Below, in pieces: positions 2,343 to 16,165 of a stretch of 64,000 nucleotides of DNA. Location: NCBI GenBank assembly GCA_001657385.1, contig LYSZ01000003.1, forward strand, positions 129,001-193,000, read 5' to 3'. Under the pieces are notes generated by a model that ran no database searches, was not told the DNA's origin, and saw only the letters and a program-made list of their open reading frames with translations. The DNA comes from Parvularcula sp. BBD 1991-13 (GTDB lineage Bacteria; Pseudomonadota; Alphaproteobacteria; Caulobacterales; Parvularculaceae). Made by a program: the position numbers and the translations under genes. Within the stretch, counting starts at the first letter, position 1. Every line of letters starts with the position of its first letter.

Positions 2343-3179
2343 GTGCCAATCTCCGTGGGATAAAGCGCAATCATGTTCGCAACCGCGCTGACATTGTGAA
2401 AATCAATTGTTTAAATCATTCAATAAATCCGCTCGCCGGGAGACGTCGAGCCAGAGCGCCGGGCAAATAGCGGCGACGGCGCGACGACGCGCCTGAAGCT
2501 GGCCTACATAAACCCAAAAGGCTGCTCCGTCTACTTACTTTCATATCGCCTCATCCGCCGGCGCGGGAAGACGCCGCACGACCAGTACAGACCGGAGTAG
2601 AGCCGTGACGATCCCGCACGCGATCCGGTTCACAACACTGCGCAAGATCGTGACGTGGAGATTCTTCGGATCGCGTCAAAGAGAATCCACCCTAAAATCG
2701 TCGTCATTCACGATTTTCACATGATACAGTCAACGATCGTTTGATTTCCCGCGCGCACATGTTGCATTGTCGGATCGAGGCGTTATGGTAACTCCTCTTT
2801 TTTAATTTGCATACGTATTGTTTCACCGCTTTCGACTAGATTGAACAGACCAGGGTCGAAACCGCGCAAACCACAACCGCTTCGCAGCTCGAAGCCGCCC
2901 GACCTGAGCCGGCCAAACGGTCGGCTCAGCCCTTGAGACTTTGCCGATAGCTCGTGAACGCTCAGATGATGAGACCTTTCTTTTTTTAAACTGGCGCACC
3001 CGCACCCTAAAAGGCGGCCGCGTTCATGACGAGAACCGCGAACAGGGCCCGTGAACAGGGCCCGTGAACAGGGACAGCAAGCCGGAACCGCAACGCAAGG
3101 CGCTGCGCAACGGCCTTTATCGAGAGGAGTTCGACACCCCGCCGACGCACAGGGAAACAAGCAGTTTATTTTCCTTACA
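2343..3179. other. Gene-poor stretch upstream of the lasso locus
   Basis: I see no supportable gene in these roughly 840 bases. It must hold the promoter of the exported protein on the minus strand and that of the kinase operon on the plus strand, but I cannot place either with confidence. Its right end contains a 13-bp tandem repeat (3040-3073). Confidence 0.5.
3040..3073. repeat. 13-bp tandem repeat, 2.6 copies
   Basis: The unit GAACAGGGCCCGT occurs at 3040-3052 and 3053-3065, then eight bases of a third copy at 3066-3073. GGGCCC is itself palindromic. It lies about 110 bases upstream of the kinase start, so it could be slippage-prone leader DNA or a repeated binding site. Confidence 0.8.
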
Positions 3180-3791
3180 ATGATATTATTTTCAGGAACA
3201 TCGACATTGCCAGTTTATAGTTTTGATCCGCAATCTGATATCGGTTTCGTATACTGGGTGACAGGTTTGCCTGGCGCCGGAAAATCAACCTTCGCCCGCG
3301 CCCTGAACGACAGCCTGAAACAGGCGGGCGTTCCCTCCCTGCTCATCGATAGCGACCAGTTCCGCAATGCGCTTGGCAACGCCTTTGGTTTCGACCGCGA
3401 AAGCCGGCGCGAGCTTGGCGCCGCCTATGGCCGCCTGTCCGATCTTTTCAGCCGGCAGGGGCTCGACATCGTCTGCGCCACGACATCGCTTTTCGAGGAT
3501 GTCCGGCGCTGGAACCGCGAACACCTGGCGCATTACCAGGAAATTTACATCCAGACCCCGTCGGACCTGATCGTCCGCCGCCACCCGAGAGGGCTTTACG
3601 CGCGCGCCCTGGAAAAGCGCGTCAGAAACGTTCCCGGCGTCGATCAGTATATTGAGGAACCCAGGGAGCCGGATGTGGTGATCGACAACACCGACGACGT
3701 CACGCCGGACGACCTGAACGCTTATGCGGCGCGCATCGTCATGGAACGTTTCGCCCATTCCCGCACAGAACAAAAAGGAACCGCCTTATAA
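3180..3791 (+). CDS. Adenylyl-sulfate-kinase-like kinase in lasso locus
   Basis: A 203-residue P-loop kinase of the APS kinase (CysC) family. The Walker A motif GLPGAGKST is at residues 29-37, followed by LLIDSDQFRNAL (counterpart of the CysC DGDNVR segment), GFDRESRRE, and a C-terminal QTPSDLIVRRHPRGLYARAL and VPGVDQYIEEPREPDVVID, all in CysC order. Known CysC makes PAPS, but there is no ATP sulfurylase nearby. The gene overlaps the TPR-LicD gene by one base (TAATG), so a tailoring role (phosphoryl transfer to the peptide or to a LicD substrate) is inferred. I chose the ATG at 3180 because upstream sequence to a GTG at 3051 is repeat-derived and unlike the family. Confidence 0.8.
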   Translation: MILFSGTSTLPVYSFDPQSDIGFVYWVTGLPGAGKSTFARALNDSLKQAGVPSLLIDSDQFRNALGNAFGFDRESRRELGAAYGRLSDLFSRQGLDIVCATTSLFEDVRRWNREHLAHYQEIYIQTPSDLIVRRHPRGLYARALEKRVRNVPGVDQYIEEPREPDVVIDNTDDVTPDDLNAYAARIVMERFAHSRTEQKGTAL

Positions 3792-5140
3792 TGCTTGACG
3801 CCTCCGACACTTCTCCATCCGTTGACCCGCTCCTGAAACGAGGTTTCAACTTCCACGAAGCCGGCAACAACCTCGCCGCAGCGAAGATCTTCGAGATCGC
3901 CTATCGTCGCGACCCGTCTTCCATCGCCGCCATCCTCAACATGGGTTCGTCCTATTACAAGGCGAAGCATTATCCGGAAGCGGAAGAGGCCTACAAGGAG
4001 GCGCTGAAGACCGATCCCGACAATGCAACCGCCCATTACGGCCTCGGCATGATCTATGAGGAAATCGGCGACCGCCCGGCCTCCCGCGCGCGCTTCCAAA
4101 AGGCGGCGGCGCTTTCCCCTGACGCCGGCAAGCCGTGGATGTCCCTGGCGCAGGTCACGCACGAAGAAACCCCGCGTCTTCAGGCGCTGAAACGCGCGAC
4201 CGACTGGGCGAAAAGGCAGCTTGAAAACGACGCCCTCTCCGTCGAAGCCCTGAAAGAATTGATTACATATTTTCAGGAAGCAAAAATGCATGACGAGGTC
4301 AGGCGCGCATGCACGTTGGCGCTGCAACACAAACCTCAGTCGCAAAGCCTCATGGAGGCGCTCGCCAGCAGCCACCTCTGGCTGCACGATTATGAAACGG
4401 CGGCGGGCCTGAAACGCAGCGTGATTATGACATGTGAACCGACATATACAAGACCGGTGAAAGATGAGGCCTTCGCCAAATCGGCCACCAAAACGCTGAT
4501 CGAGATCCACGAAACCCTGACCGCCGCAAAGATTCCGTTTTTCCTCGTCGGCGGCACCTTGCTCGGGTTCATTCGCGACAACGGCGTTATTCCGCATGAC
4601 AAGGATGTCGATATCGGCGTCATGGACGACGTCTCGAACAAGGACGTGATCGAAGCCATGCGGAACAATATCGAGTTCACCTGTCCTCTGACTTACGCCG
4701 ATGACGATATTTATCTGAATGTCAGTCACGGCTCGACCGGCATCGACGTCTTCCGGCATGAACGGGACAACGACCATATCTGGTGCGGCATCAACCGCCG
4801 CGCCGGCGCGATGAAATGGCGCTACAGGGCTTTCGGCTTCAAGCAGGCTGAAATCCTTGACCGGACATTCGCCGTTCCGGACGACTGCCCGCAATATCTG
4901 ACAGACCTGTTCGGGGCCTGGGAAACGCCAGACGTCGGCTATCAGTCGGTTCTTTCTTCGCCAGCCCGTTTTGATACGGATCATCATTTTCTGCGCTATA
5001 TGAGCTATTATCGCTTGTGGCTCGCGGTGCACAGGAAGAATACGGACCTTCTCAACCGGACGCTCGAACAGACGCCAGAGGACGTCAGGAACGATTCCGA
5101 GTTGAATGAGCGGCTGGCGTTTTTGAATCAGCGTTCGTAA
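3791..5140 (+). CDS. TPR repeat protein fused to LicD-family nucleotidyltransferase
   Basis: A 449-residue protein. Residues about 10-200 contain tetratricopeptide-type helices (for example YYKAKHYPEAEEAYKEALKT and NATAHYGLGMIYEEIGDRPAS). From about residue 235 comes a LicD/fukutin-like domain: FLVGGTLLGFIRDNGVIP then DKDVDIG, with the metal-binding pair D272 and D274. LicD enzymes move phosphocholine-type groups from a nucleotide carrier onto acceptors. Starting one base inside the kinase gene and ending 64 bases before a lasso precursor, it is probably a tailoring enzyme, with the TPR part holding the precursor or B/C proteins. That role is inference; the domain calls are firm. Confidence 0.8.
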   Translation: MLDASDTSPSVDPLLKRGFNFHEAGNNLAAAKIFEIAYRRDPSSIAAILNMGSSYYKAKHYPEAEEAYKEALKTDPDNATAHYGLGMIYEEIGDRPASRARFQKAAALSPDAGKPWMSLAQVTHEETPRLQALKRATDWAKRQLENDALSVEALKELITYFQEAKMHDEVRRACTLALQHKPQSQSLMEALASSHLWLHDYETAAGLKRSVIMTCEPTYTRPVKDEAFAKSATKTLIEIHETLTAAKIPFFLVGGTLLGFIRDNGVIPHDKDVDIGVMDDVSNKDVIEAMRNNIEFTCPLTYADDDIYLNVSHGSTGIDVFRHERDNDHIWCGINRRAGAMKWRYRAFGFKQAEILDRTFAVPDDCPQYLTDLFGAWETPDVGYQSVLSSPARFDTDHHFLRYMSYYRLWLAVHRKNTDLLNRTLEQTPEDVRNDSELNERLAFLNQRS

Positions 5141-5204
5141 CGCAAAGCGCGCTTGTCCAGGATCGGCATTCATTATTTCAGATTTACGCTTGAGGACACT
5201 TTCT

Positions 5205-5354
5205 ATGGCATGGACGATTATTGAGCTTGGCGTAGCGTCACAAACCACAAAAGGCTCGCTCGGCACATTTGTCGAGGTAAGCGTGGTTTCCGGCACGGTC
5301 TGTCATCCGAGTTTTTCCGTTGACGGAAACGGAACCTGCGGGTGTCTCGAATGA
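5205..5354 (+). CDS. Lasso peptide precursor A1
   Basis: A 49-residue peptide. The leader is MAWTIIELGVASQTTK, with Thr at -2 relative to the core glycine, the conserved leader threonine of lasso precursors, and an LGxAS..TKG pattern like that of proteobacterial precursors such as astexin. The predicted core is 33 residues, starting GSLGTFVEV; Glu24 is core position 8, giving a possible Gly1-Glu8 isopeptide ring. The tail has VCHPSF and ends TCGCLE, with cysteines at residues 33, 45 and 47. Its stop overlaps the ATG of the B gene (ATGA). G+C is 80/150, higher than A2. Confidence 0.85.
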   Translation: MAWTIIELGVASQTTKGSLGTFVEVSVVSGTVCHPSFSVDGNGTCGCLE

Positions 5355-6127
5355 CGTCAACGCAAACCATGCCCCGCGCCGCCCAAACGACCGACGAACC
5401 GAAAAATCCGGGCAACGCCATGCCGCAACAGGTCTTTCAGGCCAAGGCGGCGAGTTATTGCCTGCTGGATAGCGTTTCAATCTTTCTTGACCGCGAAAAC
5501 GACCGGTATCACTACCTCGACAGGGAGAAAACCGGACTTCTCGATGCGCTCCGCCGCGGCTTTGGCCCCGACGGCGTGGCGCGGGGCGCCGCCGGCCCCG
5601 TGGACGCAAGCGTCGTCAAGGAGCTGACGGAAAAACGCCTTCTGACGACGCAGGCGAAGGACGGCAAAGCGCTTCAGCCCGTCTCCCATACGCCGCCCAT
5701 CTCTTCCGTATACGATGATTACTGGAAGCCGCAACTCTACCCGGCGACGATCGCGCACCTGGCCGTTCAACACCTCTCCGTCCTGCGCCGGATCAAAACG
5801 GAGAGCCTTTTCGAAACGACGCAAAAAGCGGAACGGGCGAAAGCCTCCATCGCCGGACGCGAAAAGGCTGTCGCCGAAACGGAACTGCGCGCAAAAGCGA
5901 AGAAAATAATCGATTCGCGATATTTTGTTTATACGTATAGAGATAAGTGCCTCTTCGATTCCTACCTCTTTTTCACCTATTTCGTGAACAGACGCATTCC
6001 CGTCAACTGGGTTTTCGGCGTCAACCTATATCCGTTCGCGGCGCATTGTTGGGTCGAATATGAAGGATTGGTTATGAACGACCCGCTGGAACGCGTTGCG
6101 GCCTTCACGCCGATCTACGTCATTTAA
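5351..6127 (+). CDS. Lasso peptide B protein: fused leader-binding and leader-peptidase domains
   Basis: A 258-residue fused B protein, as is usual in proteobacteria. Residues about 25-100 form the PqqD/RRE-like B1 part (SIFLDRENDRYHYLDREKTG is the typical beta-strand/helix text) that would bind the leader. The C-terminal part is transglutaminase-like: C200 in DKCLFDSYLFF, H232 in AAHCWVEYEG and D244 in LVMNDPLE form the expected Cys-His-Asp triad that removes the leader after the conserved Thr-x. I start it at the ATG at 5351, overlapping the A1 stop by four bases (translational coupling), rather than the GTG nine bases earlier. Confidence 0.9.
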   Translation: MTSTQTMPRAAQTTDEPKNPGNAMPQQVFQAKAASYCLLDSVSIFLDRENDRYHYLDREKTGLLDALRRGFGPDGVARGAAGPVDASVVKELTEKRLLTTQAKDGKALQPVSHTPPISSVYDDYWKPQLYPATIAHLAVQHLSVLRRIKTESLFETTQKAERAKASIAGREKAVAETELRAKAKKIIDSRYFVYTYRDKCLFDSYLFFTYFVNRRIPVNWVFGVNLYPFAAHCWVEYEGLVMNDPLERVAAFTPIYVI

Positions 6128-6141
6128 GGAAGCGTCACCGC

Positions 6142-7953
6142 ATGATCAACTACTTCCTTCTCGCCTGGGACCCCGACAACAAAGAACATGTCACGAATGC
6201 GGACAAACTTCTGCAAACGGTCAGGGGGGCGCCGAACGATTTCGAGCCGGTTTTCAACGCCGAGGGCGTCGCCGTCTACGTTCAGGGAGACTGCACCGAG
6301 ACCGTATTCCCCCTGGATAACGGGATGGGGCTCATTCTCGGCCGGCTGTTCCATAATGTTCAGTCACCGGATGACGACGCCAAGGTCAACGGCGCCATAA
6401 AAAAATCCACCAGGGAGATTGTCGACAGCCGCGGCGAGCACCTGACCCGCAACTACTGGGGGTCTTACCTTACCGTGATCAGGGGCGCCGACAAGACGCT
6501 TCTGGTCGGACGGGATTGCAGTTGCCTGCAACTTTGCTACACGACCTGGCTGGACGGCGTCTTTTGCGCTTTTTCCAATCTGGACGCCCTGCCCTTTTAC
6601 GAGTCCGTCCGTAAAGATATCAACTGGTCGTATCTGACCCAGTTCGCCCGCTACACGCACCTGCCGCTGATCGAAACCGGCCTGCAACACGTGGAACAAC
6701 TGGCGGGTGGCGAAACCGCGGAAATCAACCTGCAAACCGGAGCGGTTGAAAAATTCCGGAACTGGCGGCCGGAAGAGTTCACGGAAAACCCGATCGAGGA
6801 TTTCGAGACGGCGCGCCGCACGCTCCACACCACACTCCTCGCGACGCTGTCCGCACAGGCGAAGCCATATGACAACATCGCCGTGATGTTGTCCGGCGGG
6901 CTCGATTCGTCGATCCTCCTCGCCTGCCTGCGCAATGTTCATCCGGACGCGGAGGTCTACGCCAAGCACCTCCTCTCCATGGAGAACGACCTCAGCGAGG
7001 CGCACTACGCCCGCGCGATGGCGGATGCGTATGGCGTCGAAATGGCCGTGGAGGAGCAGGAGGCGGGAACGAACACCAGCTACATCGGACACGTCACGCC
7101 GCCCTGGCCCATCCCCGTCGACCGGGACTATATGGAGGACAACGACGCCAACGCGGCCGCGATCCGGAAAGGCGCCGACTACATCGAAAGCCGCAACATC
7201 CAGGCGTTTTTTAAAGGCCAGGGCGGCGACATCGTGTTCTTCAAGCGGCCGGAGATCGCGCCCCTGTTCGACTACCGCAGGAAACACCCCTTCGACCGGC
7301 AATATTACGAGATCCTGATGAACACCGCCCGGCTGACGCAAATGTCCGTGTGGAAACTGCGCAAGGCCGTGCGGCGCAACGACCGCAACGCGGTGCGCAG
7401 GCCGGACACGCGGAACATCTTCCTCGCCGCGGACTTCATGGCCGACGCGCCCGCGCGCAGCCCCTATGACGAGCATCCGTGGTTTCGCGGGGATACGGAC
7501 TTTTCCTTCGGCAAGCAGCACCAGCTCCAGCAGTTCACGGTCTTCAACCACTACGCCCAGCGCTGGACGCCGAGCAAGCCGGAGATGCTGGCGATTTCGC
7601 CGTTCATCTGCCAGCCGCTGATGGAGGTCATGCTGCGCATACCGACGCACATCATCCTGGCGGGCGGGCGCAATCGCGGCCTGGCGCGGGAGGCGTTCAA
7701 GGCCGAGCTCGCCCCCGAGATCTACGCCCGGGAGCAGAAGGGATACGTCACCAAATACTTCTTCAACGGGCTGATCGAGAACCTGCCCGCGATCCGGGCG
7801 TATCTTTATGACGGCGTCCTCCTGAAACAGGGCTTCCTCGACCGGGCGGCGCTGGACGCGCATCTCAACGAAGACAGCATCAAGACGAAACTCGTCGGTT
7901 CTTTTTTGTTAAACGCCCTCAAGAACGAAAAATGGGCGCGGTCCGTTGCGTAA
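6142..7953 (+). CDS. Lasso cyclase C, asparagine-synthetase-like
   Basis: A 603-residue asparagine-synthetase-family protein. The N-terminal half is the degenerate glutaminase-like domain, without an N-terminal catalytic Cys (it begins MINYFLLAW). The ATP-pyrophosphatase motif SGGLDSS is at residues 251-257. Family members activate the acidic side chain of the precursor as an acyl-adenylate and close the macrolactam onto the core N-terminus. It follows the B gene by 14 bases and precedes A2 by 44, so A1-B-C-A2-A3 probably form one transcription unit. It is GC-rich throughout, unlike the AT-rich precursors just downstream. Confidence 0.9.
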   Translation: MINYFLLAWDPDNKEHVTNADKLLQTVRGAPNDFEPVFNAEGVAVYVQGDCTETVFPLDNGMGLILGRLFHNVQSPDDDAKVNGAIKKSTREIVDSRGEHLTRNYWGSYLTVIRGADKTLLVGRDCSCLQLCYTTWLDGVFCAFSNLDALPFYESVRKDINWSYLTQFARYTHLPLIETGLQHVEQLAGGETAEINLQTGAVEKFRNWRPEEFTENPIEDFETARRTLHTTLLATLSAQAKPYDNIAVMLSGGLDSSILLACLRNVHPDAEVYAKHLLSMENDLSEAHYARAMADAYGVEMAVEEQEAGTNTSYIGHVTPPWPIPVDRDYMEDNDANAAAIRKGADYIESRNIQAFFKGQGGDIVFFKRPEIAPLFDYRRKHPFDRQYYEILMNTARLTQMSVWKLRKAVRRNDRNAVRRPDTRNIFLAADFMADAPARSPYDEHPWFRGDTDFSFGKQHQLQQFTVFNHYAQRWTPSKPEMLAISPFICQPLMEVMLRIPTHIILAGGRNRGLAREAFKAELAPEIYAREQKGYVTKYFFNGLIENLPAIRAYLYDGVLLKQGFLDRAALDAHLNEDSIKTKLVGSFLLNALKNEKWARSVA

Positions 7954-7997
7954 AGTGAGGGGTGTATGTTTTTTTAAAATTTATGGTGGAGAAAAGT

Positions 7998-8144
7998 ATG
8001 ATTATCGAACTTGGACTTGCCTCTAATGCTACAAAAGGATCAATCATACCACTTTTTATTGAATTTGATGGAGATCTTACTAGAATTTGCCCGCCACCGT
8101 TCCAGTTTACACTTACAATTGGGGGTGATTTTGACTGTGATTAA
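7998..8144 (+). CDS. Lasso peptide precursor A2
   Basis: A 48-residue peptide with leader MIIELGLASNATK, only 13 residues, and a 35-residue core beginning GSIIPLFIEF. Glu22 is core position 9, so a Gly1-Glu9 ring is possible. The tail carries ICPPPF and ends GGDFDCD, with cysteines at residues 31 and 47. GGTGGAGA lies 4-11 bases before the ATG at 7998 and decides the start; an upstream GTG in frame would add an unrelated N-terminus. G+C is 55 of 147, far below the surrounding genes. Its first 30 coding bases match A3 in 27 positions, showing recent duplication. Confidence 0.85.
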   Translation: MIIELGLASNATKGSIIPLFIEFDGDLTRICPPPFQFTLTIGGDFDCD

Positions 8145-8305
8145 TCTTTTTGTGGCTGAACGAATTATCAAAAGCCAATAAAATCATAAAGACTATATTG
8201 TATCGTATACTGACAAATAACATTGATAAAAAGAGACTGTTATGGTTTAATGACATCACCGCTTCACAGCGATGTATATTTCAAAAACTTAAATGGAGAT
8301 GATCT

Positions 8306-8452
8306 ATGATTATCGAACTTGGTCTTGCTTCTGATGTTACTAAAGGCAGCCCCCTTCCGGCTCCAAATATTGAATATACAAGCGCTCTGCCTGCCAACGT
8401 TTGCACACCAGCTTTCACGTCAGGCGGTCAAGATAAATTTACTTGTTCGTAA
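8306..8452 (+). CDS. Lasso peptide precursor A3
   Basis: A 48-residue peptide with leader MIIELGLASDVTK, almost identical to that of A2, and a core beginning GSPLPAPNIEY. The only Glu in the core is residue 23, core position 10, so if it closes the ring the macrolactam would have ten residues, larger than the 7-9 usually seen. The tail has VCTPAF and ends KFTCS, with cysteines at 33 and 47. GGAG lies 8-11 bases before the ATG. It is separated from A2 by 161 bases without a gene and followed by a rho-independent terminator. Confidence 0.83.
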   Translation: MIIELGLASDVTKGSPLPAPNIEYTSALPANVCTPAFTSGGQDKFTCS

Positions 8453-8473
8453 TATTTTATTTGCGAAGAAATT

Positions 8474-8505
8474 TAGATGCGCACTTATGTGCGCATCTAT
8501 TTTTC
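8474..8505 (+). terminator. Rho-independent terminator after precursor A3
   Basis: The perfect 11-bp stem TAGATGCGCAC / GTGCGCATCTA with a TTAT loop is followed by a run of five T. It lies 22 bases after the A3 stop and 28 bases before the end of the convergent isopeptidase gene, so it should end the precursor transcript. Confidence 0.85.
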
Positions 8506-8532
8506 TGATTATTTATATTCTATGTTTACTTC

Positions 8533-10404
8533 TTATTTTAAAAATTTGAATACTTGTCTCCATAAATCATGCTGATTTTGAGGTTGTTCAATAAGATGAT
8601 GCTCTCCAAAATATTTTACAAAAAGAACTTCTTTATCTTCTCGATGTAGCGCAGAGAATATTTCTTCGGCTTGTGTTACGTGTGCTGCTGTATCCAAGCC
8701 GCCATGAATCAGAAGTATCGGCGTAGATACATTCTGGACATGAAAAAGCGGACTGTTTCGTATGTACCGATCCGGCGCGTCCCACGGCTGCGCTCCTAAC
8801 GTGAACAATCGCGATTCGACACTAGGGCGATCATATATGCCGCCAGGCTGACTAAATCTCTCTCCATCAATCTTTGCCCATGGCGCAAATGTTCCGTACT
8901 GGCTAACAATATTGGATATCATCATGGCTGAAATGATTGCTTGAAACCGGTCTGACTGCACAGCCGCAGACAATGCGGCATAGCCGCCAAAACTGTGACC
9001 AGTTAACGCCATACTTCTTTGGTCAACAAACCCAGTATTGATAGCATTGTTAATAGCCGAGTCGATGGCAACTATAATCCGCGGCATAGGCTCCACTGAA
9101 CCTTCTTCCTTGGCATAAGGAATAGACGGTAGTAATACTGCGTATCCTTGGGCGGCAAAAACCTCCATCATAACTGGAGCTGTTAAATATGTTGACCAAA
9201 TATCGCTCGCGAAAGGAGGATGATTTACTGGTGGCGTCTCATAAATCAACCCCGGATAAGCAATCACCACCAGCGGATAAGGCTCAGGCCGATCCAGGGA
9301 CGCGCTCGGCGGCAGGAACAGCCAGCTTTTGACCTGTTCTCCAGCATAGTCCTCATGGTCGATCCGGATGGGGCCGACCGCGGTCTCAACCCCCGCCAGA
9401 TGTTCGTTGAACTGGAGGAGCAACACCGGTTCGGCGCCCTGTTCCCTCGCCACGTAATGCAGCCGGCTGCCGACGGCATTATCGTTCGTCAGGAACACCT
9501 CCCCCCTGTCCGACGACGCCATCAGGAGGGATTGGGGCGCGGGCGGGTTCAGCGCCTCCGGAGACGGTTCCAGTCGCGCATAAGCCGTCTTTGTTCTTGC
9601 AACGCTGAATTCTTTTAGACGCTCGACATACGCAGTTTCCTCTTGCTCCGTCGCCGGACGCATGGCGCCCGCGGAGACATTGATGGCGACATAGGACCGG
9701 GTTTCATCCCGATCCTTGCTTTTGGCGTATTTGCCGCCGCCGACCACTTCCGCCGTGACCGCGCCGTCGCGCCACCCGGCCTCCCGCGCCGCCGCAATGT
9801 CACGCGCAGCCTTCATAACTTCCCACGCAAGGCCGGTGCTCCGGTAGCCCCGGTTCAGGGCGGCGACAAGGTAGCCGTCACCGGTCCAGAGGGGTTCGCT
9901 GAACCTTTCGTCCTCCCCCGCCTCACCGTCGACATATCTAAATTTGCGGCGCTTCAGGTCGTAAAGGCCGAGGCGCTCCCGCTCGTCCTCCAAATGGTGG
10001 ATAGCGAGATAGCGCCCGCCAGGGGACATGACGTCCGGCGACCCCAAAACAGCGCCGGCGAAGGCGTAGGAGTCCGCCTCCGCCTGATCGAACAGGGGCC
10101 GCGCCGGCGCGGCGCCGTCCATGGGGGCGACATAGATTTTCTTGCGTTTCGTATCGTTGGACGTAGGGGAGAAAGCGGCGCGAACATAGCCGCCGTCGGG
10201 GGACCAGGCGGAGTCGGACAGTTCGAAATAGACCTGGCCCCGCGCATCGTCGATGACCACGGCGCCCACATGCTGGCGCTGGAGGAGCAAGTCGACGGTC
10301 GCGGTTTTGACAGGGGGGGCGGTTTTCACCGGCTCGGCGGCTACAGCGATCCCAATGGAGAGGATGGAGAGCACGGCGAGAACGAGGGGGCGCATGGCGG
10401 TCAT
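8533..10404 (-). CDS. Lasso peptide isopeptidase, S9 prolyl-oligopeptidase family
   Basis: A 623-residue exported protein with a signal peptide ending near VAA-EPV. Residues about 40-370 are the beta-propeller part; the C-terminal alpha/beta hydrolase has S471 in GHSFGG, D571 in HGGLDTAAH and H602/H603 in FGEHHLIE. This is the architecture of AtxE2-type isopeptidases, which hydrolyse the isopeptide bond of threaded lasso peptides, and it is the normal partner of proteobacterial lasso loci lacking an ABC exporter, as here. The catalytic domain (8533 to about 9250) is markedly AT-rich, for example 23 G+C of 60 at 9001-9060, while the propeller is GC-rich, so the gene looks chimeric. Confidence 0.88.
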   Translation of the reverse strand: MTAMRPLVLAVLSILSIGIAVAAEPVKTAPPVKTATVDLLLQRQHVGAVVIDDARGQVYFELSDSAWSPDGGYVRAAFSPTSNDTKRKKIYVAPMDGAAPARPLFDQAEADSYAFAGAVLGSPDVMSPGGRYLAIHHLEDERERLGLYDLKRRKFRYVDGEAGEDERFSEPLWTGDGYLVAALNRGYRSTGLAWEVMKAARDIAAAREAGWRDGAVTAEVVGGGKYAKSKDRDETRSYVAINVSAGAMRPATEQEETAYVERLKEFSVARTKTAYARLEPSPEALNPPAPQSLLMASSDRGEVFLTNDNAVGSRLHYVAREQGAEPVLLLQFNEHLAGVETAVGPIRIDHEDYAGEQVKSWLFLPPSASLDRPEPYPLVVIAYPGLIYETPPVNHPPFASDIWSTYLTAPVMMEVFAAQGYAVLLPSIPYAKEEGSVEPMPRIIVAIDSAINNAINTGFVDQRSMALTGHSFGGYAALSAAVQSDRFQAIISAMMISNIVSQYGTFAPWAKIDGERFSQPGGIYDRPSVESRLFTLGAQPWDAPDRYIRNSPLFHVQNVSTPILLIHGGLDTAAHVTQAEEIFSALHREDKEVLFVKYFGEHHLIEQPQNQHDLWRQVFKFLK

Positions 10405-10575: not shown

Positions 10576-13206
10576 CTAGAACGACTTGGCGAGGGTGACG
10601 ACGATCTGTCGCCCCCAGGGGGTGGCGTTGGCGGAGTCGAAATTAAGGCCGAAGGGCGTCAACGCAAAGGGCGGGTCGTTATCGAACAGATTGGTGACGT
10701 TGAAGCCGAAACGCACATTGTTGGCGACGACATTGTCAAAGCGCGTTCCCGTTTCATAAGCGAGGGAAAGGTCGATGGTGGTCCAGGCGTCGATGCCGCT
10801 GGCGATGGACCCGTCGATATTGTCGCGATAGCCGTCCACGTAATTGACGGCGGTGAAAACCGTGAACCCGTTATGGGACCAGGAGACATCGCCGCGCATT
10901 TTGAAATCCACCGGGCGGTAGAGGGTGTTGATTTCGTCGCTGGAGGGCGCCAGTTCCGTCAGCCGTCCGACATAATCGATCAGATAGGTGGCGTTGGCGC
11001 CGGCGGAAAACTCGCCGAGATTGGTTTCTCTTATATAGTTAAGTGTTAAATCAAAACCTCGGACATCACGCTCAGAAATATTTGTGAAATTTGGTGCAAA
11101 AATTACTTGAACTTCATCGGGTAAAAAACCAAAGTTATTACTAAGAAAGACTTCTCCTGCTGCAGCTTGATCAAAAAATACCTGAACAGCACTAGGATTC
11201 GGGTCGAGATCAGCCAACTCAAAGAATGATGAATTTTGAATGGTAGATAAGACATTAATCTGCTCTAATCTATCTGTATAAGAAATATCGAAAAAATTTC
11301 CCTCAATGCTAAGTCCATTAAGGAATCTAGTTTCATACACAAATCCTGCTGACCATGTCTTGGCGCGTTCTGGTGTCAAATTTGGATTACCGCCACTTTG
11401 GAACAGGGCCACATAACTCGGAAAACCAAAGAAATCAAAGGCGGCAGGTTCATTTGGTCTTTGACCAGTAAAAAATGAATCAAATAGCCCTGTTACAATT
11501 ATGCTCTGAAATTGATTTACTGAACGTAGATCGGGAGCCCGAAAAGCCTCAGAATAGGATGACCGGAATGACAAATGGTCGTTTACTTCCCAGAAAAGAC
11601 CAATTTTAGGGTCAAATGTATCGCCGAAGTCACTGTAGTCTTCATATCGGCCAGCAAGAGACAGTTCAAGCTTTTGCATAAAAGGCATCGTAGCCGCTTT
11701 TCCAAAAATCGGAACTAATACTTCTGCATATCCAGCAGATATATCTCGTTCACCAAATTCTTCGATGCCAACGTCAGTACCGGGAAGTAAGAACTTTTCT
11801 TTTCGGTAAAGTCCGCCGACGGAGAAAGACACAGCGCCGCCGGGTAGGTCAAAGGCCTGCCCACTGACACGCCCCTCATAAACTGTCAGGTCGTTGTCAA
11901 AATCAAGTCGCCGAACGGTTCCAGACAGGGTTTCGGTCGAGGTCAGGTCACTACGATTCCGCGTAATGTCCGCGAAAAAGGCGGCGGTAATCCTGTCGGT
12001 GACGTCGAATTCGACGCTGGGGTTGATGGACAGGGACGTCTGTTCCGAGACGTTGATTTCCGGAACGCTGTTGGTGACGGAGAACGAGTCGCTGGACGTG
12101 CTGGAATAGAACGTATTGACGGCGAGGCGGAGTTTCGGGGTGATCTCCTGTTTCACATTGCCGGAGACGCCGAGGCGGTCCGCGTTGGAGCCCAGGGTCG
12201 CGCCCTCGCGGGCGAGGTCAAGGTTGATGAAGTCGCGCTCCTCGACCAGGAGGGGCTTTTCCTCCTGGTAGTCGACGCCGGCGAAAAAACTGCCCGAGCC
12301 CCAGCTGAAGCCGCCGGCGCCGCCGACGCCCCAGTCCTCGCGGGAGCCGTCGGTCACCGTGCCGTAGCGGGCGTTGACGTCGAGGCCCTTGTAGTCGTCG
12401 CGGGTGATGAAGTTGATGACGCCGCCGACGGCGTCGGAGCCGTAGATCGCCGTCGCGCCGTCGGTGAGGATCTCCACGCGCTCAATCGCGCCGAGGGGGA
12501 TGACGTTGACGTCGACGATGGCGGCGTCGCCGGAGAACGGCAGGCGGCGGCCGTTCAGGAGCACGAGGGTGGAGCCGCCGCCGAGGCCGCGCAGGTCGAC
12601 GCTGGTGCCCTGGGTGCGGTTGCGGCCGGAGGTGAAGGGGTTGCCGCTCTCGGCGGTGAGCTGGGTTTCGCTGGCGAAGTTCTGCGGGATGGTGCGCAGG
12701 AAGTCGTCGACGGTGGCCGCGCCGGACAGGTCGATGTCCTCCCGGTCGAAAGTAATGACGGGGACAGTCGGGTTTTCGATGCCCTGGATGTTGGTGCCGG
12801 TGACGACGACTTCGTCCATGTCGAGATCGGCGTCGGCTGCGGATGACGATGCGGCGCTGTCGATGGTGTCGACCGCGGCGGTGCGGATGATGATGGCGCC
12901 GTCGGCGCCTTCCATATAGGAAAGGTCATTGCCCTGAAGGAGCATAGCGAGCGCTTCGTCGTCGGAATAGGTTCCGACGACGGCGGGGGCGCTGCGGCCT
13001 TCGACAAGAGCCGCTGAGTACATGAGCTGTTGGTTGGTCTGTTCGCTGTAACGGGCGAGCGCGCCGTCAAGTCCCTGCGCGGGTATGTCGAACCGATATT
13101 CCTGCGCCGATGCCGCCGATGCCGATGCCGCCGTTAGCGCGCCGGCGATTCCTCCCACAATCGCCGTCGTCAGCAACAGCTGACGCTTCGCCCCCCGAAA
13201 AACCAT
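10576..13206 (-). CDS. TonB-dependent receptor with STN signalling domain
   Basis: An 876-residue outer-membrane receptor. A signal peptide ends near ASAQEYRF; residues about 36-105 are the secretin/TonB N-terminal (STN) domain (FDIPAQGLDGALARYSEQTNQ), the FecA-type segment that talks to FecR. A TonB-box-like EVVVTG is near residue 130, then the plug with LRGLGGGSTLVLLNGRR and AIYGSDAVGGVINFITR. The barrel ends in the aromatic terminus LAKSF. With isopeptidase, FecR and sigma beside it, it probably imports the lasso peptide or its metal complex. Bases about 11030-11820 (barrel residues about 460-725) are strongly AT-rich (21 G+C of 60 at 11041-11100) against 47 of 60 at 12301-12360. Confidence 0.92.
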   Translation of the reverse strand: MVFRGAKRQLLLTTAIVGGIAGALTAASASAASAQEYRFDIPAQGLDGALARYSEQTNQQLMYSAALVEGRSAPAVVGTYSDDEALAMLLQGNDLSYMEGADGAIIIRTAAVDTIDSAASSSAADADLDMDEVVVTGTNIQGIENPTVPVITFDREDIDLSGAATVDDFLRTIPQNFASETQLTAESGNPFTSGRNRTQGTSVDLRGLGGGSTLVLLNGRRLPFSGDAAIVDVNVIPLGAIERVEILTDGATAIYGSDAVGGVINFITRDDYKGLDVNARYGTVTDGSREDWGVGGAGGFSWGSGSFFAGVDYQEEKPLLVEERDFINLDLAREGATLGSNADRLGVSGNVKQEITPKLRLAVNTFYSSTSSDSFSVTNSVPEINVSEQTSLSINPSVEFDVTDRITAAFFADITRNRSDLTSTETLSGTVRRLDFDNDLTVYEGRVSGQAFDLPGGAVSFSVGGLYRKEKFLLPGTDVGIEEFGERDISAGYAEVLVPIFGKAATMPFMQKLELSLAGRYEDYSDFGDTFDPKIGLFWEVNDHLSFRSSYSEAFRAPDLRSVNQFQSIIVTGLFDSFFTGQRPNEPAAFDFFGFPSYVALFQSGGNPNLTPERAKTWSAGFVYETRFLNGLSIEGNFFDISYTDRLEQINVLSTIQNSSFFELADLDPNPSAVQVFFDQAAAGEVFLSNNFGFLPDEVQVIFAPNFTNISERDVRGFDLTLNYIRETNLGEFSAGANATYLIDYVGRLTELAPSSDEINTLYRPVDFKMRGDVSWSHNGFTVFTAVNYVDGYRDNIDGSIASGIDAWTTIDLSLAYETGTRFDNVVANNVRFGFNVTNLFDNDPPFALTPFGLNFDSANATPWGRQIVVTLAKSF

Positions 13207-13624: not shown

Positions 13625-14683
13625 CTAGGGCGCTTCCCCGCGATATTCGAGGCGGATTTCGGCGTCGCTCATGCGGACGATCTCGAGGCCGTCCAGCGCA
13701 TACCCCATATTTTCCACAACCGCCTGGGGATTTTTCACGTCGAACCGCCCGCTGATCTTCAGCGCCCGCAGCGTCGGATCGTCAGCAAGCGTCACTTTCG
13801 CCTTGGAATAGCGATTCAGTTCGGCAACCGCGACGTCCAGGGAAGCGCCGTTCAACACCAGCATGCCGGTTTTCCACAGGCCCGCCTGATCGAGATTGAC
13901 CGAGGCCACATCGGAAAGCGTGACGTCGCTGCGCGCATTGACGGTCTCGCCCGGCGCAAGCATGACGACGTCGGCAGGCAGGCGGTCCGCCTCGCGCCCG
14001 CGCCATCGGCGCCAGCGCCCGGCTTCCTCCGCGTCGCTGACGACCGCGCTGCCCTCCAACAGCGTGAACGCGGTCTCCTCAGCGTACCGGCGGACCGTAA
14101 AGACCGTGCCGAGCGCCATGATCATGCCGTCATCCGTGTGCGCCTGGAACGGCCGCTCGCGATCGGACGCCACGTCGAATTCGCTACGCCCCTGGAGAAG
14201 ATCGACGCGGCGCAATTTATCCGAAAAGGACACGCGAATCCGGGAATTGGTGTCGAGCGTCGCCACCGAGCCGTCGCTCAGGGTGACGGATTTCTGCTCG
14301 CCCACGGCGGTCGCGTAAACCAGCGCGTCCCGTTGCTGAAAGGGCGCAAGCGCCCAGACCCCGACGCCGCCAACGGCGACAAACAGAACCACCCCCGCCG
14401 CCATGGCCGTAACCTGCGACAGGGACGAAGCCTCCCGGTCCCGCAGGTCGTCGGCGACCGGAGACGTCTCAGCCCCCGGCCCGCCAGCGGTCCGCAGCAC
14501 GGTAATGGTATGGAGATAATGCTCGTAGGCGAGGCGATGGTCGTCGCTCGCCGTCAGCCACACCCGAAACGCGGCCCCCTCCTCATCGCTAAAGTCCGGG
14601 CTTTCCGTCCTTTCGATCCAGTGAAGAGCCTGCCTTTCGGTATCCGATGCGTCGTCTCGGCTTGACAAGGGTACTGGTGTCAA
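13625..14683 (-). CDS. FecR-type anti-sigma regulator
   Basis: A 352-residue FecR-family protein. Residues about 13-60 form the cytoplasmic DUF4880-type anti-sigma part (ALHWIERTESPDFSDEEGAAF), a single membrane helix follows at about 92-112 (VTAMAAGVVLFVAVGGVGVW), and the periplasmic FecR domain carries LSDGSVATLDTNSRIRV and GMIMALGTVFTVRRY. The C-terminal piece (VAVAELNRYSKAKVTL) is STN-like. The start is a TTG that overlaps the sigma gene stop (TTGA), indicating translational coupling. It should relay receptor occupancy from the STN domain to the sigma factor. Confidence 0.9.
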   Translation of the reverse strand: MTPVPLSSRDDASDTERQALHWIERTESPDFSDEEGAAFRVWLTASDDHRLAYEHYLHTITVLRTAGGPGAETSPVADDLRDREASSLSQVTAMAAGVVLFVAVGGVGVWALAPFQQRDALVYATAVGEQKSVTLSDGSVATLDTNSRIRVSFSDKLRRVDLLQGRSEFDVASDRERPFQAHTDDGMIMALGTVFTVRRYAEETAFTLLEGSAVVSDAEEAGRWRRWRGREADRLPADVVMLAPGETVNARSDVTLSDVASVNLDQAGLWKTGMLVLNGASLDVAVAELNRYSKAKVTLADDPTLRALKISGRFDVKNPQAVVENMGYALDGLEIVRMSDAEIRLEYRGEAP

Positions 14684-15426
14684 CTCACTGCGCCTTTTCG
14701 CATTAGTTCTTCTTTTATGATGCGCAGCGCGCTGTGCCGGACATTCCTCGCCGTACGGACGGAAATGCCGAGGTCCTTGGCGATCACTTTCCAGCCTTTG
14801 CCGCGCATGTAAAAATCGTCGATAACCTTTTGTTCGCGGGCGTTCAGCTTGCGCATGGCCGATTTCACCCGCTCCACCTCCTGGCGGCCGATCACCCGTT
14901 GCTCGGCGCTGACGAGGCTGTCGTCGGCGAGCGACGCCTCCAGGCCTTCCTGGTCGTCAAGGCCGGAAGAGCGTTTCACATGCGCGGACCGGAAATGGTC
15001 GAACGCGGCGTTGCGCGCCGCGCGATAGATGTAGCTGAGCTTGTCGTCAACGCCGACTAGCCTGCGCTTTTCAATAAGATCGACAAAAAGGTCGTGCACG
15101 ATGTCGGCGGCGTCCTCGCTGTTGCCGACCATGCGACGCACATGATTGAACAATTGCGCATAGTAAGTGACGTACAGGTAGTCGAAATTCAGATCCTCGT
15201 CCGGATAGTCCGGCGCCGCGCCGTTGGCCGCCAGCGGGGTCGACGGCTGGGACGCCTGATGGGTCTCGCAGGCGGCGCCGATCGCCCGATTGGCCGGCGC
15301 AGCGGCGGATTTACCGCGCTGTTGCAGCCCCTTTTTCTGATCGGGCGCCGGGCCGCGCCGGCCGAACTCAAGATCAAGAATATTGCCCGACGCTGCCAAT
15401 TTAGCGAAGTACGTGACGCGCGACAT
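14680..15426 (-). CDS. ECF sigma factor, FecI-like
   Basis: Sigma region 2 is seen in LYVTYYAQLFNHVRRMVGNSEDAADIVHDLFVDLIE and region 4 in LNAREQKVIDDFYMRGKGWKVIAKDLGISVRTARNVRHSALR. The chosen ATG (15426) follows a GGGGTGGGG stretch and gives 248 residues; that still leaves an unusual N-terminal extension of about 85 residues before region 2, and an earlier ATG at 15510 would make it longer. The extension has no recognisable domain. It is co-encoded with FecR and should drive transcription of the receptor/isopeptidase genes when the lasso signal arrives. Confidence 0.88.
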   Translation of the reverse strand: MSRVTYFAKLAASGNILDLEFGRRGPAPDQKKGLQQRGKSAAAPANRAIGAACETHQASQPSTPLAANGAAPDYPDEDLNFDYLYVTYYAQLFNHVRRMVGNSEDAADIVHDLFVDLIEKRRLVGVDDKLSYIYRAARNAAFDHFRSAHVKRSSGLDDQEGLEASLADDSLVSAEQRVIGRQEVERVKSAMRKLNAREQKVIDDFYMRGKGWKVIAKDLGISVRTARNVRHSALRIIKEELMRKGAVS

Positions 15427-16165
15427 GGATCCCCACCCCTGATGCAATCCGTATTGCACAATTTTGAATAAAATTCTCATAGATTGAAATCGAAGCAAGA
15501 GCAATCGCAAATACCCGCGGCGTTTTTCAATCGCTGATCAGTATCCGGCGATACGGCGTCGCCGTTTTCACGGATCCGCAGAAACCAAAATAAACCCTTT
15601 AACGATTATTTTCACGGAATGTTTTTCCGTCGGTCATTACTTCCACCGAATGACGTTTGACGCCGCTTTCGTCGCATAACGAAAGCTTTTATGCGATTTG
15701 ATGCTGGAAAAAGATTGAATGCCAGTTTTTTGATATATGAATTGATGAAAAATAAATTGTGTATCAATAGGAATTTTTATCACTCTCTTCATGACATTTT
15801 ATTTTTAGCGCCATTTTCCATCCTATTCTCCATTTTTGTGACATACATTGCGGACTTATTAATAATGAAACTCATAATCATTATTGGAAATATAGTCGCT
15901 ACATATGGCTTAATTGGTTATTCTCCATAAAAAGCGCAAGAGGTGCGCTTGCACGTGGTGCGGCGTCATGCCGTTGAGCCGACGCGTCTGGCCGCGGCCG
16001 GCCCGGCTGCATTTCTCATGGTAAAAATCGTCGGCCGCTTCAGCCGCCGCGGCGTCAGGCCAATGACCGAAACGACCGCACTCCAATGCGGCGCCGCGCA
16101 AGAATGCGGCGCAACGCAAGGCCGTCTCCCGAATTCAGCGGGGGCGCTCCCTTTCTGACGGCGGC
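15427..16165. other. Intergenic region upstream of sigma factor
   Basis: About 740 bases that should include the sigma operon promoter. The middle (about 15700-15930) is AT-rich and holds only the doubtful small frame listed separately. Nothing else is recognisable. Confidence 0.4.
15691..15930 (+). CDS. Possible small membrane protein
   Basis: A 79-residue frame in an AT-rich patch, with two hydrophobic segments (ILFLAPFSILFSIFVTYIADLLIM and KLIIIIGNIVATYGLIGY). There is no clear ribosome-binding site and I recognise no family. AT-rich random DNA easily gives such hydrophobic frames, so this may not be a gene. Confidence 0.2.
   Translation: MRFDAGKRLNASFLIYELMKNKLCINRNFYHSLHDILFLAPFSILFSIFVTYIADLLIMKLIIIIGNIVATYGLIGYSP

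Follow-up and report, generated by a model that had tools for sequence, protein, structure and literature searches.

What does a bacterial operon produce when its lasso peptide genes are accompanied by three precursors with unusually long, cysteine-bearing tails? This question is raised by a locus in a 64,000-nucleotide stretch of the genome of Parvularcula sp. BBD 1991-13 (GenBank assembly GCA_001657385.1, contig LYSZ01000003.1, positions 129,001 to 193,000), which was analysed as a whole and is hereafter called the window. Three small genes, designated A1, A2 and A3, lie next to genes for a lasso leader peptidase (B) and a lasso cyclase (C), and an original prediction had described them as a precursor family. 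Our analysis points to a single operon for the production of three long lasso peptides, a reading which we consider likely; the locus is a real and probably working lasso operon with a new type of precursor. Its central genes are:

5205..5354, plus strand: A1, predicted lasso precursor (leader 16 residues, core 33, E8, Cys 17/29/31)
5351..6127, plus strand: lasso B, leader peptidase (NF033537 lasso_biosyn_B2 5.2e-19, 68.9 bits against a cut-off of 33; Transglut_core3 2.2e-16)
6142..7953, plus strand: lasso C, macrolactam (Asn-synthetase-like) cyclase (PF00733 2.4e-19; SGGLDSS at 251)
7998..8144, plus strand: A2, predicted lasso precursor (leader 13, core 35, E9, Cys 18/34, Thr15-Arg16 six residues past E9)
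8306..8452, plus strand: A3, predicted lasso precursor (leader 13, core 35, E10, Cys 20/34)

Three precursors beside lasso B and C

The small genes turned out to be real parts of a lasso operon, one before B and C and two after, with B passing the B2 model and C being cyclase-like. Reading of the open reading frames (ORFs) also bore out the predicted leaders of 13-16 residues, the Gly-Ser core start and the [VI]CxPxF motif in A1, A2 and A3. The leaders (MAWTIIELGVASQTTK, 16 residues, in A1; MIIELGLASNATK, 13 residues, in A2; MIIELGLASDVTK, 13 residues, in A3) all end in Thr-Lys, which places Thr at position -2 and the small residue Gly1, followed by Ser2, at the start of each core. Each ATG is preceded by a GAGGA- or GGAG-like ribosome site, and 18 columns of the alignment are invariant among the three. 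A strict leader motif, defined as an ending T[KRLQ]G in a short ORF, gave three matches in the 64 kb, namely A1, A2 and A3, whereas 200 mononucleotide shuffles of the same stretch averaged 0.07 matches and never gave more than 1. On the benenodin precursor model NF033522, A1, A2 and A3 reached 21.1 (2.1e-4), 13.8 and 21.4 bits, all below the cut-off of 33 bits.

Lasso B carries an N-terminal extension which, judged by eye, is of the RiPP recognition element (RRE) type (RiPP, ribosomally synthesised and post-translationally modified peptide), as well as Cys200, His232 and Asp244, likewise assigned by eye as its triad. Lasso C is 27% identical over ~560 residues to the C protein of a named Caulobacter lasso cluster and, like that protein, scores below the cut-offs of the NCBIfam macrolactam cyclase models. 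The gene context is that of a lasso system, with a precursor adjoining a B2 transglutaminase-like peptidase and an Asn-synthetase-like C. Assignment to the lasso systems is thus well supported by the adjacent B and C, Thr at -2, Gly1, E8 and E9, and by neighbouring TonB receptor, FecR and sigma factor genes as in the named cluster, and we are confident in predicting A1 and A2 to be lasso precursors. That the operon belongs to another RiPP class, in which homologous enzymes would act on the Cys tail, is very improbable: the cores are far longer than those of relatives, but in leader, ring acid and B/C the operon matches lasso systems.

Long cysteine tails set the precursors apart

We compared the three precursors with those of 88 loci (window included; 83 with a cyclase), which comprised the 81 cyclase places listed for a sample of the order, the places of LicD homologues described below and one place from a family search. 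A motif scan (cores of 14-45 residues, longest possible leader of at least 12 residues, a set leader motif, at most 2.5 kb from B/C) gave 108 candidates. Two of these were judged false and dropped (L147 at 8802 and L183 at 8763, neither with an acid at 7-9 nor with Cys), leaving 106 precursors in 82 loci, 103 of them outside the window; owing to these limits, shorter or unlike precursors would be missed, and six of the 88 loci yielded none.

The long Cys tails and the E10 of A3 are the special features of the set, while the short leader is not. As the original prediction had held, cores of 33-35 residues are long for lasso peptides: in the 103 other precursors the range is 14-25. Cys is absent from 101 of these, the exceptions being L118 with two Cys inside the presumed ring and L123 with a single one, and none of the 103 has two or more Cys past the ring acid. 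The L118 candidate (5389-5475; core ACFCMIVPEEDLALFYMT) has Ala at position 1 and lacks an ATG start. The predicted two-cysteine tail, with an arrangement resembling class IV (exactly two Cys after the ring), would fit A2 and A3, in which both Cys lie past the ring acid; for A1 it fails, as this precursor has three. A Glu at core position 8-10 was found as predicted (E8, E9 and E10), and A1 and A2 have the usual Asp or Glu at position 7-9, as do 105 of the 106 precursors, whereas A3 does not. The view that a minimal leader is itself a novelty was rejected, since six of the 103 other precursors, at five loci (L118, L119 twice, L121, L123, L174), have no ATG, GTG or TTG that would allow a leader of more than 12 residues. 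A core start at Ser2, with rings shortened to 7, 8 and 9 residues, was also rejected because it conflicts with the Thr -2 rule and with Gly1, found in 100 of the 106 precursors; we keep it as a minor option for A3 only.

But is A3 still a working precursor? It could be a duplicate in decay, its ring acid displaced to position 10, with only A1 and A2 being functional. Its E10 is the single exception among 106 precursors, and A3 starts 161 bases past A2 within a low-GC stretch. On the other hand, A3 has preserved its start site, leader, Gly-Ser, [VI]CxPxF and last Cys. We regard decay as the less likely outcome, albeit one to be taken seriously, and lean towards A3 being cyclised as well.

Relatives of the cyclase and the precursors

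With the cyclase as query, 21 of 62 genomes of the family sample matched at 1e-3, many of them weakly, and 61 of 398 genomes of the order sample matched at 1e-30; of the 385 genomes in a class sample, only the own one did so at 1e-40. No close relative of the cyclase emerged from these samples: in the order sample, identity outside the genome reached at most 31%, a value shared by the genome's second cyclase, the match with the best E-value. A genome contig collection gave one match only, a distant Endomicrobia protein (23% identity), and a plasmid search gave 26 records, with 24-29% identity for the 15 listed ones.

When A1-A3 were searched in the family sample (E up to 1), the own genome showed a fourth, weak place (0.28), and 22 other genomes gave matches; the four best of these fall in the leaders of other lasso precursors (0.009-0.024), and the remainder have E-values of ~0.1-1. 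The order search (E up to 0.05) yielded matches in nine of the 398 genomes, the own one included. The best outside match (G380, 5e-4) lies inside an ORF read as aroA-like, and no lasso-gene match was found within the 3 kb loci of G380, G085 and G128. The original prediction had named close homologues away from lasso B/C genes as evidence that would speak against it; no convincing one was found in the 62 family and 398 order genomes, the weak matches being inspected in part. Plasmids gave no match to A1 or A3 (A2 was not searched alone), no match was confirmed among viral contigs, and the PDB gave one match at chance level (0.67).

A facing peptidase and receptor block

On the opposite strand, the operon faces four genes:

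8533..10404, minus strand: S9/prolyl-oligopeptidase-family peptidase in isopeptidase position (Peptidase_S9 1.9e-24; signal-like start, by eye)
10576..13206, minus strand: TonB-dependent receptor with STN domain (family search)
13625..14683, minus strand: FecR-type anti-sigma factor (family search)
14680..15510, minus strand: extracytoplasmic function (ECF) sigma factor (family search)

TonB-receptor matches are common at such loci (80 of the 83 with a cyclase). The S9 peptidase has Ser/Asp/His motifs, and in a direct comparison it is 24% identical across the hydrolase domain to the peptidase of the lasso cluster in Caulobacter sp. FWC26. Its role is deduced from gene position, and we give an even chance to the idea that it opens the ring. 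Single-sequence structure models were poor and not used (mean pLDDT, predicted local distance difference test, 32.4 for the S9 peptidase and 44.6 for the LicD protein introduced below).

Two sharply bounded low-GC blocks (window positions 7950-9200 and 11000-11850) cover A2 and A3, the peptidase downstream of codon ~400 and codons ~440-720 of the TonB receptor. The GC content at third codon positions (GC3) is ~0.15-0.53 there compared to 0.55-1.0 in the surroundings, and its range is narrower in the relatives checked (15 receptors, 7 peptidases). The protein parts encoded there may touch the peptide, and the blocks might have been swapped in by recombination.

The peptidase and receptor genes allow a different view of the tails. 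Instead of forming a disulfide, a Cys tail could act as a metal- or cargo-binding arm, with the peptide serving as a siderophore-like shuttle that enters via the TonB receptor and is opened by the peptidase. The receptor, FecR and sigma genes are of the iron-uptake type, A2 has an Asp-rich tail with Cys while A1 has Cys-His and Cys-Gly-Cys, and a siderophore-like role of isopeptidase clusters was proposed earlier (a passage of PMC11006600, citing Chekan et al. 2016). However, among the window genes covered by the Pfam search no metal-uptake gene besides the receptor block was found, the ligands differ among A1, A2 and A3, and the 101 Cys-free precursors among the 103 others are mostly located in TonB-receptor loci. 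We consider such a shuttle unlikely and favour, with some reserve, a tail disulfide in A2 and A3.

A TPR-LicD protein tied to lasso genes

Two further genes, which the original prediction had left out together with the facing block, open the operon, and a likely terminator closes it:

3051..3791, plus strand: APS-kinase-like (CysC-like) kinase (Pfam APS_kinase 1.9e-30; start uncertain, conserved domain from ~3240)
3791..5140, plus strand: tetratricopeptide repeat (TPR) and LicD-type nucleotidyltransferase-fold protein, proposed tailoring enzyme (Pfam LicD 3.9e-7)
8474..8499, no strand assigned: likely intrinsic terminator (11-pair stem, T run on the plus strand; operon end after A3)

The order is thus kinase, TPR-LicD, A1, B, C, A2, A3, opposed by S9 peptidase, TonB receptor, FecR and sigma factor. 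Kinase and TPR-LicD overlap by one base (TAATG), 64 bases separate TPR-LicD from A1, and A1 in turn overlaps B. The stem at 8474-8499 is the longest one listed in a terminator scan which overall gave no excess (11 compared to 10.1 expected). Upstream, between a methyltransferase gene and the operon, lies a fragment (1353-1691) that by eye resembles the end of an insertion sequence (IS) transposase.

The LicD match (PF04991) passes its gathering cut-off (30.8 compared to 22.6 bits), yet covers only 32 residues (positions 4-35 of 227). A search of the 398 order genomes with the window protein (E up to 1e-15) returned 34 places, spread over 24 genomes, and in all 32 aligned homologues (L105, which is short, and L106 were left out) the D270/D272/D274 triad and a GT..G..R motif are kept; we take such an acidic D.D.D triad after GT..G..R to be the LicD family motif. 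Lasso B and C adjoin the gene at 29 of the 34 places. The other five are L109 (B without C), L103, L104 (a 4.3 kb contig) as well as L086 and L087, where the contig ends on the side on which lasso genes would lie. At L103 (8930-11500), the ORF list shows the first part of B followed by genes that by eye resemble IS transposases.

The presence of LicD goes along with a feature of the precursors themselves. A Ser or Thr followed by Arg or Lys past core position 9 (tail [ST][RK]) occurs in all 29 LicD-locus precursors outside the window but in only one of 74 without detected LicD (Fisher p ~9e-25, a value that overstates the contrast as related loci are treated as independent); for distinct cores, the counts are 24/24 and 1/59. 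The exception, L191, starts 253 bases from a contig end, and the presence of LicD cannot be judged there; when the six precursors with less than 2 kb of upstream sequence are omitted, L191 among them, the count without LicD becomes 0/68. In 28 of the 29 cases the site lies 6-8 residues past position 8, and the contrast is also seen within single genomes that carry both kinds of locus (G020, G042).

LuxI-type autoinducer synthase-like genes, as we would label them from ORF translations, lie upstream of LicD at eight loci (L089, L092, L097, L098, L100, L102, L106, L114), most of them accompanied by what is presumably a LuxR-type regulator. In the second lasso locus of the own genome (L003 on contig C17 of G000), a calcineurin-like phosphoesterase (4967-6481; Metallophos 1.8e-14) takes the place of the S9 peptidase; its role might be to cleave off a phosphate-linked group.

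Kinase and TPR-LicD might also serve a surface glycan and be mere neighbours of the lasso genes, as known LicD enzymes transfer phosphorylcholine to glycans (as stated in an excerpt of PMC10434233). Against this stand the LicD homologues flanking lasso B/C at 29 of 34 places and tracking the precursor motif, as well as the recurrence of the kinase-LicD pair in the own second lasso locus, and we regard a glycan function as improbable. Given its close association with lasso B/C and with the tail [ST][RK], TPR-LicD may mark a lasso tailoring branch unreported so far. Our literature search found no relevant paper that joins lasso peptides with LicD or APS kinase; since most subscription papers were outside its scope, this absence is no proof.

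From genes to products

Gene order, the precursors, B, C, the receptor block and the linkage of LicD with lasso genes are read directly from the DNA; from these we infer the following course of cyclisation, disulfide formation, tailoring, uptake and opening. B would cut off the short leader after Thr-Lys, whereupon C would link Gly1 to Glu8 in A1 or to Glu9 in A2; A3 would require a ring of 10 residues or is possibly not cyclised. The tails are ~8-20 residues longer than those of relatives and bear Cys past the ring. The simplest explanation would be a tail-tail disulfide in A2 and A3, formed outside the cytoplasm, while A1 would retain one unpaired Cys or employ it in a bond to another molecule. 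At least one precursor would probably receive a phospho-linked group on Ser or Thr through the action of the APS-kinase-like protein and TPR-LicD. Sensing and import of the peptides would fall to the sigma factor, FecR and TonB receptor encoded opposite, and ring opening to the S9 peptidase.

Several points weigh against this reading of the locus. The chemistry of the products is deduced from sequence, the Cys count of A1 is odd, and A3 is the sole precursor of the survey with its acid outside 7-9. No transporter, and hence no export route on which Cys oxidation would depend, was recognised among the window genes covered by the Pfam search. The S9 peptidase reaches 40.7 bits on the Atxe2 model NF033523, far from the cut-off of 400 and from the 583.2 bits of the FWC26 control, and a PDB sequence search with it (1e-3) listed other S9 peptidases and no lasso isopeptidase; failing NF033523, it was rejected as a proven isopeptidase. 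The kinase was detected in two of the 88 loci only, both in the own genome, where the copy beside the LicD gene of the second lasso locus is 55% identical. Tail [ST][RK], whose statistic already suffers from the relatedness of the loci, is absent from A1 and A3; within the window only A2 fits (Thr15-Arg16), and this may be chance. The LicD protein of the window would either use another residue, such as the Ser2 common to A1-A3, or have A2 as its sole substrate. Whether LicD and the kinase modify at least one of the three peptides is, in our estimation, evenly balanced.

In the boldest version of the reading, one cyclase would make three lasso peptides with disulfide tails and with 8-, 9- and 10-residue rings, the CysC-like kinase and TPR-LicD would decorate Ser or Thr of the tail with a phosphodiester-linked group, and the locus would stand at the far end of a lasso branch with LicD tailoring that extends over several families of its order; we put this forward as a long shot. 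The operon offers a natural set of three peptides for testing a single lasso cyclase on varied ring lengths and very long Cys tails. It also points to a dedicated partnership of TPR-LicD with lasso systems, and the predicted site, Ser or Thr before Arg or Lys 6-8 residues past the ring acid, makes a new lasso peptide modification directly testable.

Comparison with known lasso systems

Which systems come closest? The own second lasso locus (L003/L192) shares APS-like kinase, TPR-LicD, A, B, C, TonB receptor, FecR and sigma factor with the window, but its C is 31% identical, its one precursor has an ordinary 17-residue core without Cys, and the phosphoesterase replaces the S9 peptidase. The benenodin/astexin-type cluster on plasmid p1 of Caulobacter sp. 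FWC26 (NZ_CP033873.1) has several precursors and the same layout of A genes, B, C, peptidase, TonB receptor, FecR and sigma factor. Its precursors have 44 residues and score 47.4 and 41.2 bits on NF033522, compared to 21.1, 13.8 and 21.4 bits in the window; its peptidase is a true Atxe2 member (583.2 bits), unlike the S9 peptidase, and its annotated stretch has no LicD and no kinase, whereas the window has both. Among class IV peptides, LP2006 and the felipeptins are said not to be proteobacterial, and the pandonodin cluster reportedly has one precursor.

For the tailoring genes, partial parallels are in print. Tailoring of lasso peptides by a kinase and a nucleotidyltransferase is described in excerpts of PMC9266682 and PMC8498205, where the pseudomycoidin cluster combines the PsmK kinase with the PsmN nucleotidyltransferase, like the pair of enzymes in the window; it is set apart, by description and not by sequence, as a Bacillus system with HPr-type kinases, whereas the window has an APS-kinase-like protein and TPR-LicD. 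In the BsfA/BsfK system (compared by description only, from part of PMC10368454), the kinase phosphorylates Ser3 near the core start, which recalls Ser2 of A1-A3, but B1 and B2 are split and Ile is found at -2. BGC 38 (biosynthetic gene cluster) from a soil metagenome, again compared by description only, is a lasso cluster with a tetratricopeptide repeat protein gene and no LicD named in the text available of PMC12670498; a TPR gene beside lasso genes is thus already in print.

For the tails, LP2006 and the felipeptins have one disulfide wholly in the tail (description in part of PMC9266682), and the same portion of that article lists no genes beyond A-D in class IV clusters. An excerpt of PMC7549694 mentions pandonodin, yet restricts classes I, III and IV to Actinobacteria. 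The original prediction had found no characterised family with the combination seen here, which was too strong a claim: pandonodin from Pandoraea norimbergensis is a proteobacterial class IV lasso peptide of 33 residues with an 18-residue tail and one disulfide within it (excerpts of PMC13352647 and PMC9266682). Its cluster, panABCD, differs from the window by including a transporter gene, as these excerpts have it, and the likeness in length and tail is one of description, the sequences not being compared. Pandonodin is thus a partial precedent for the long class IV core that A2 and A3 would share.

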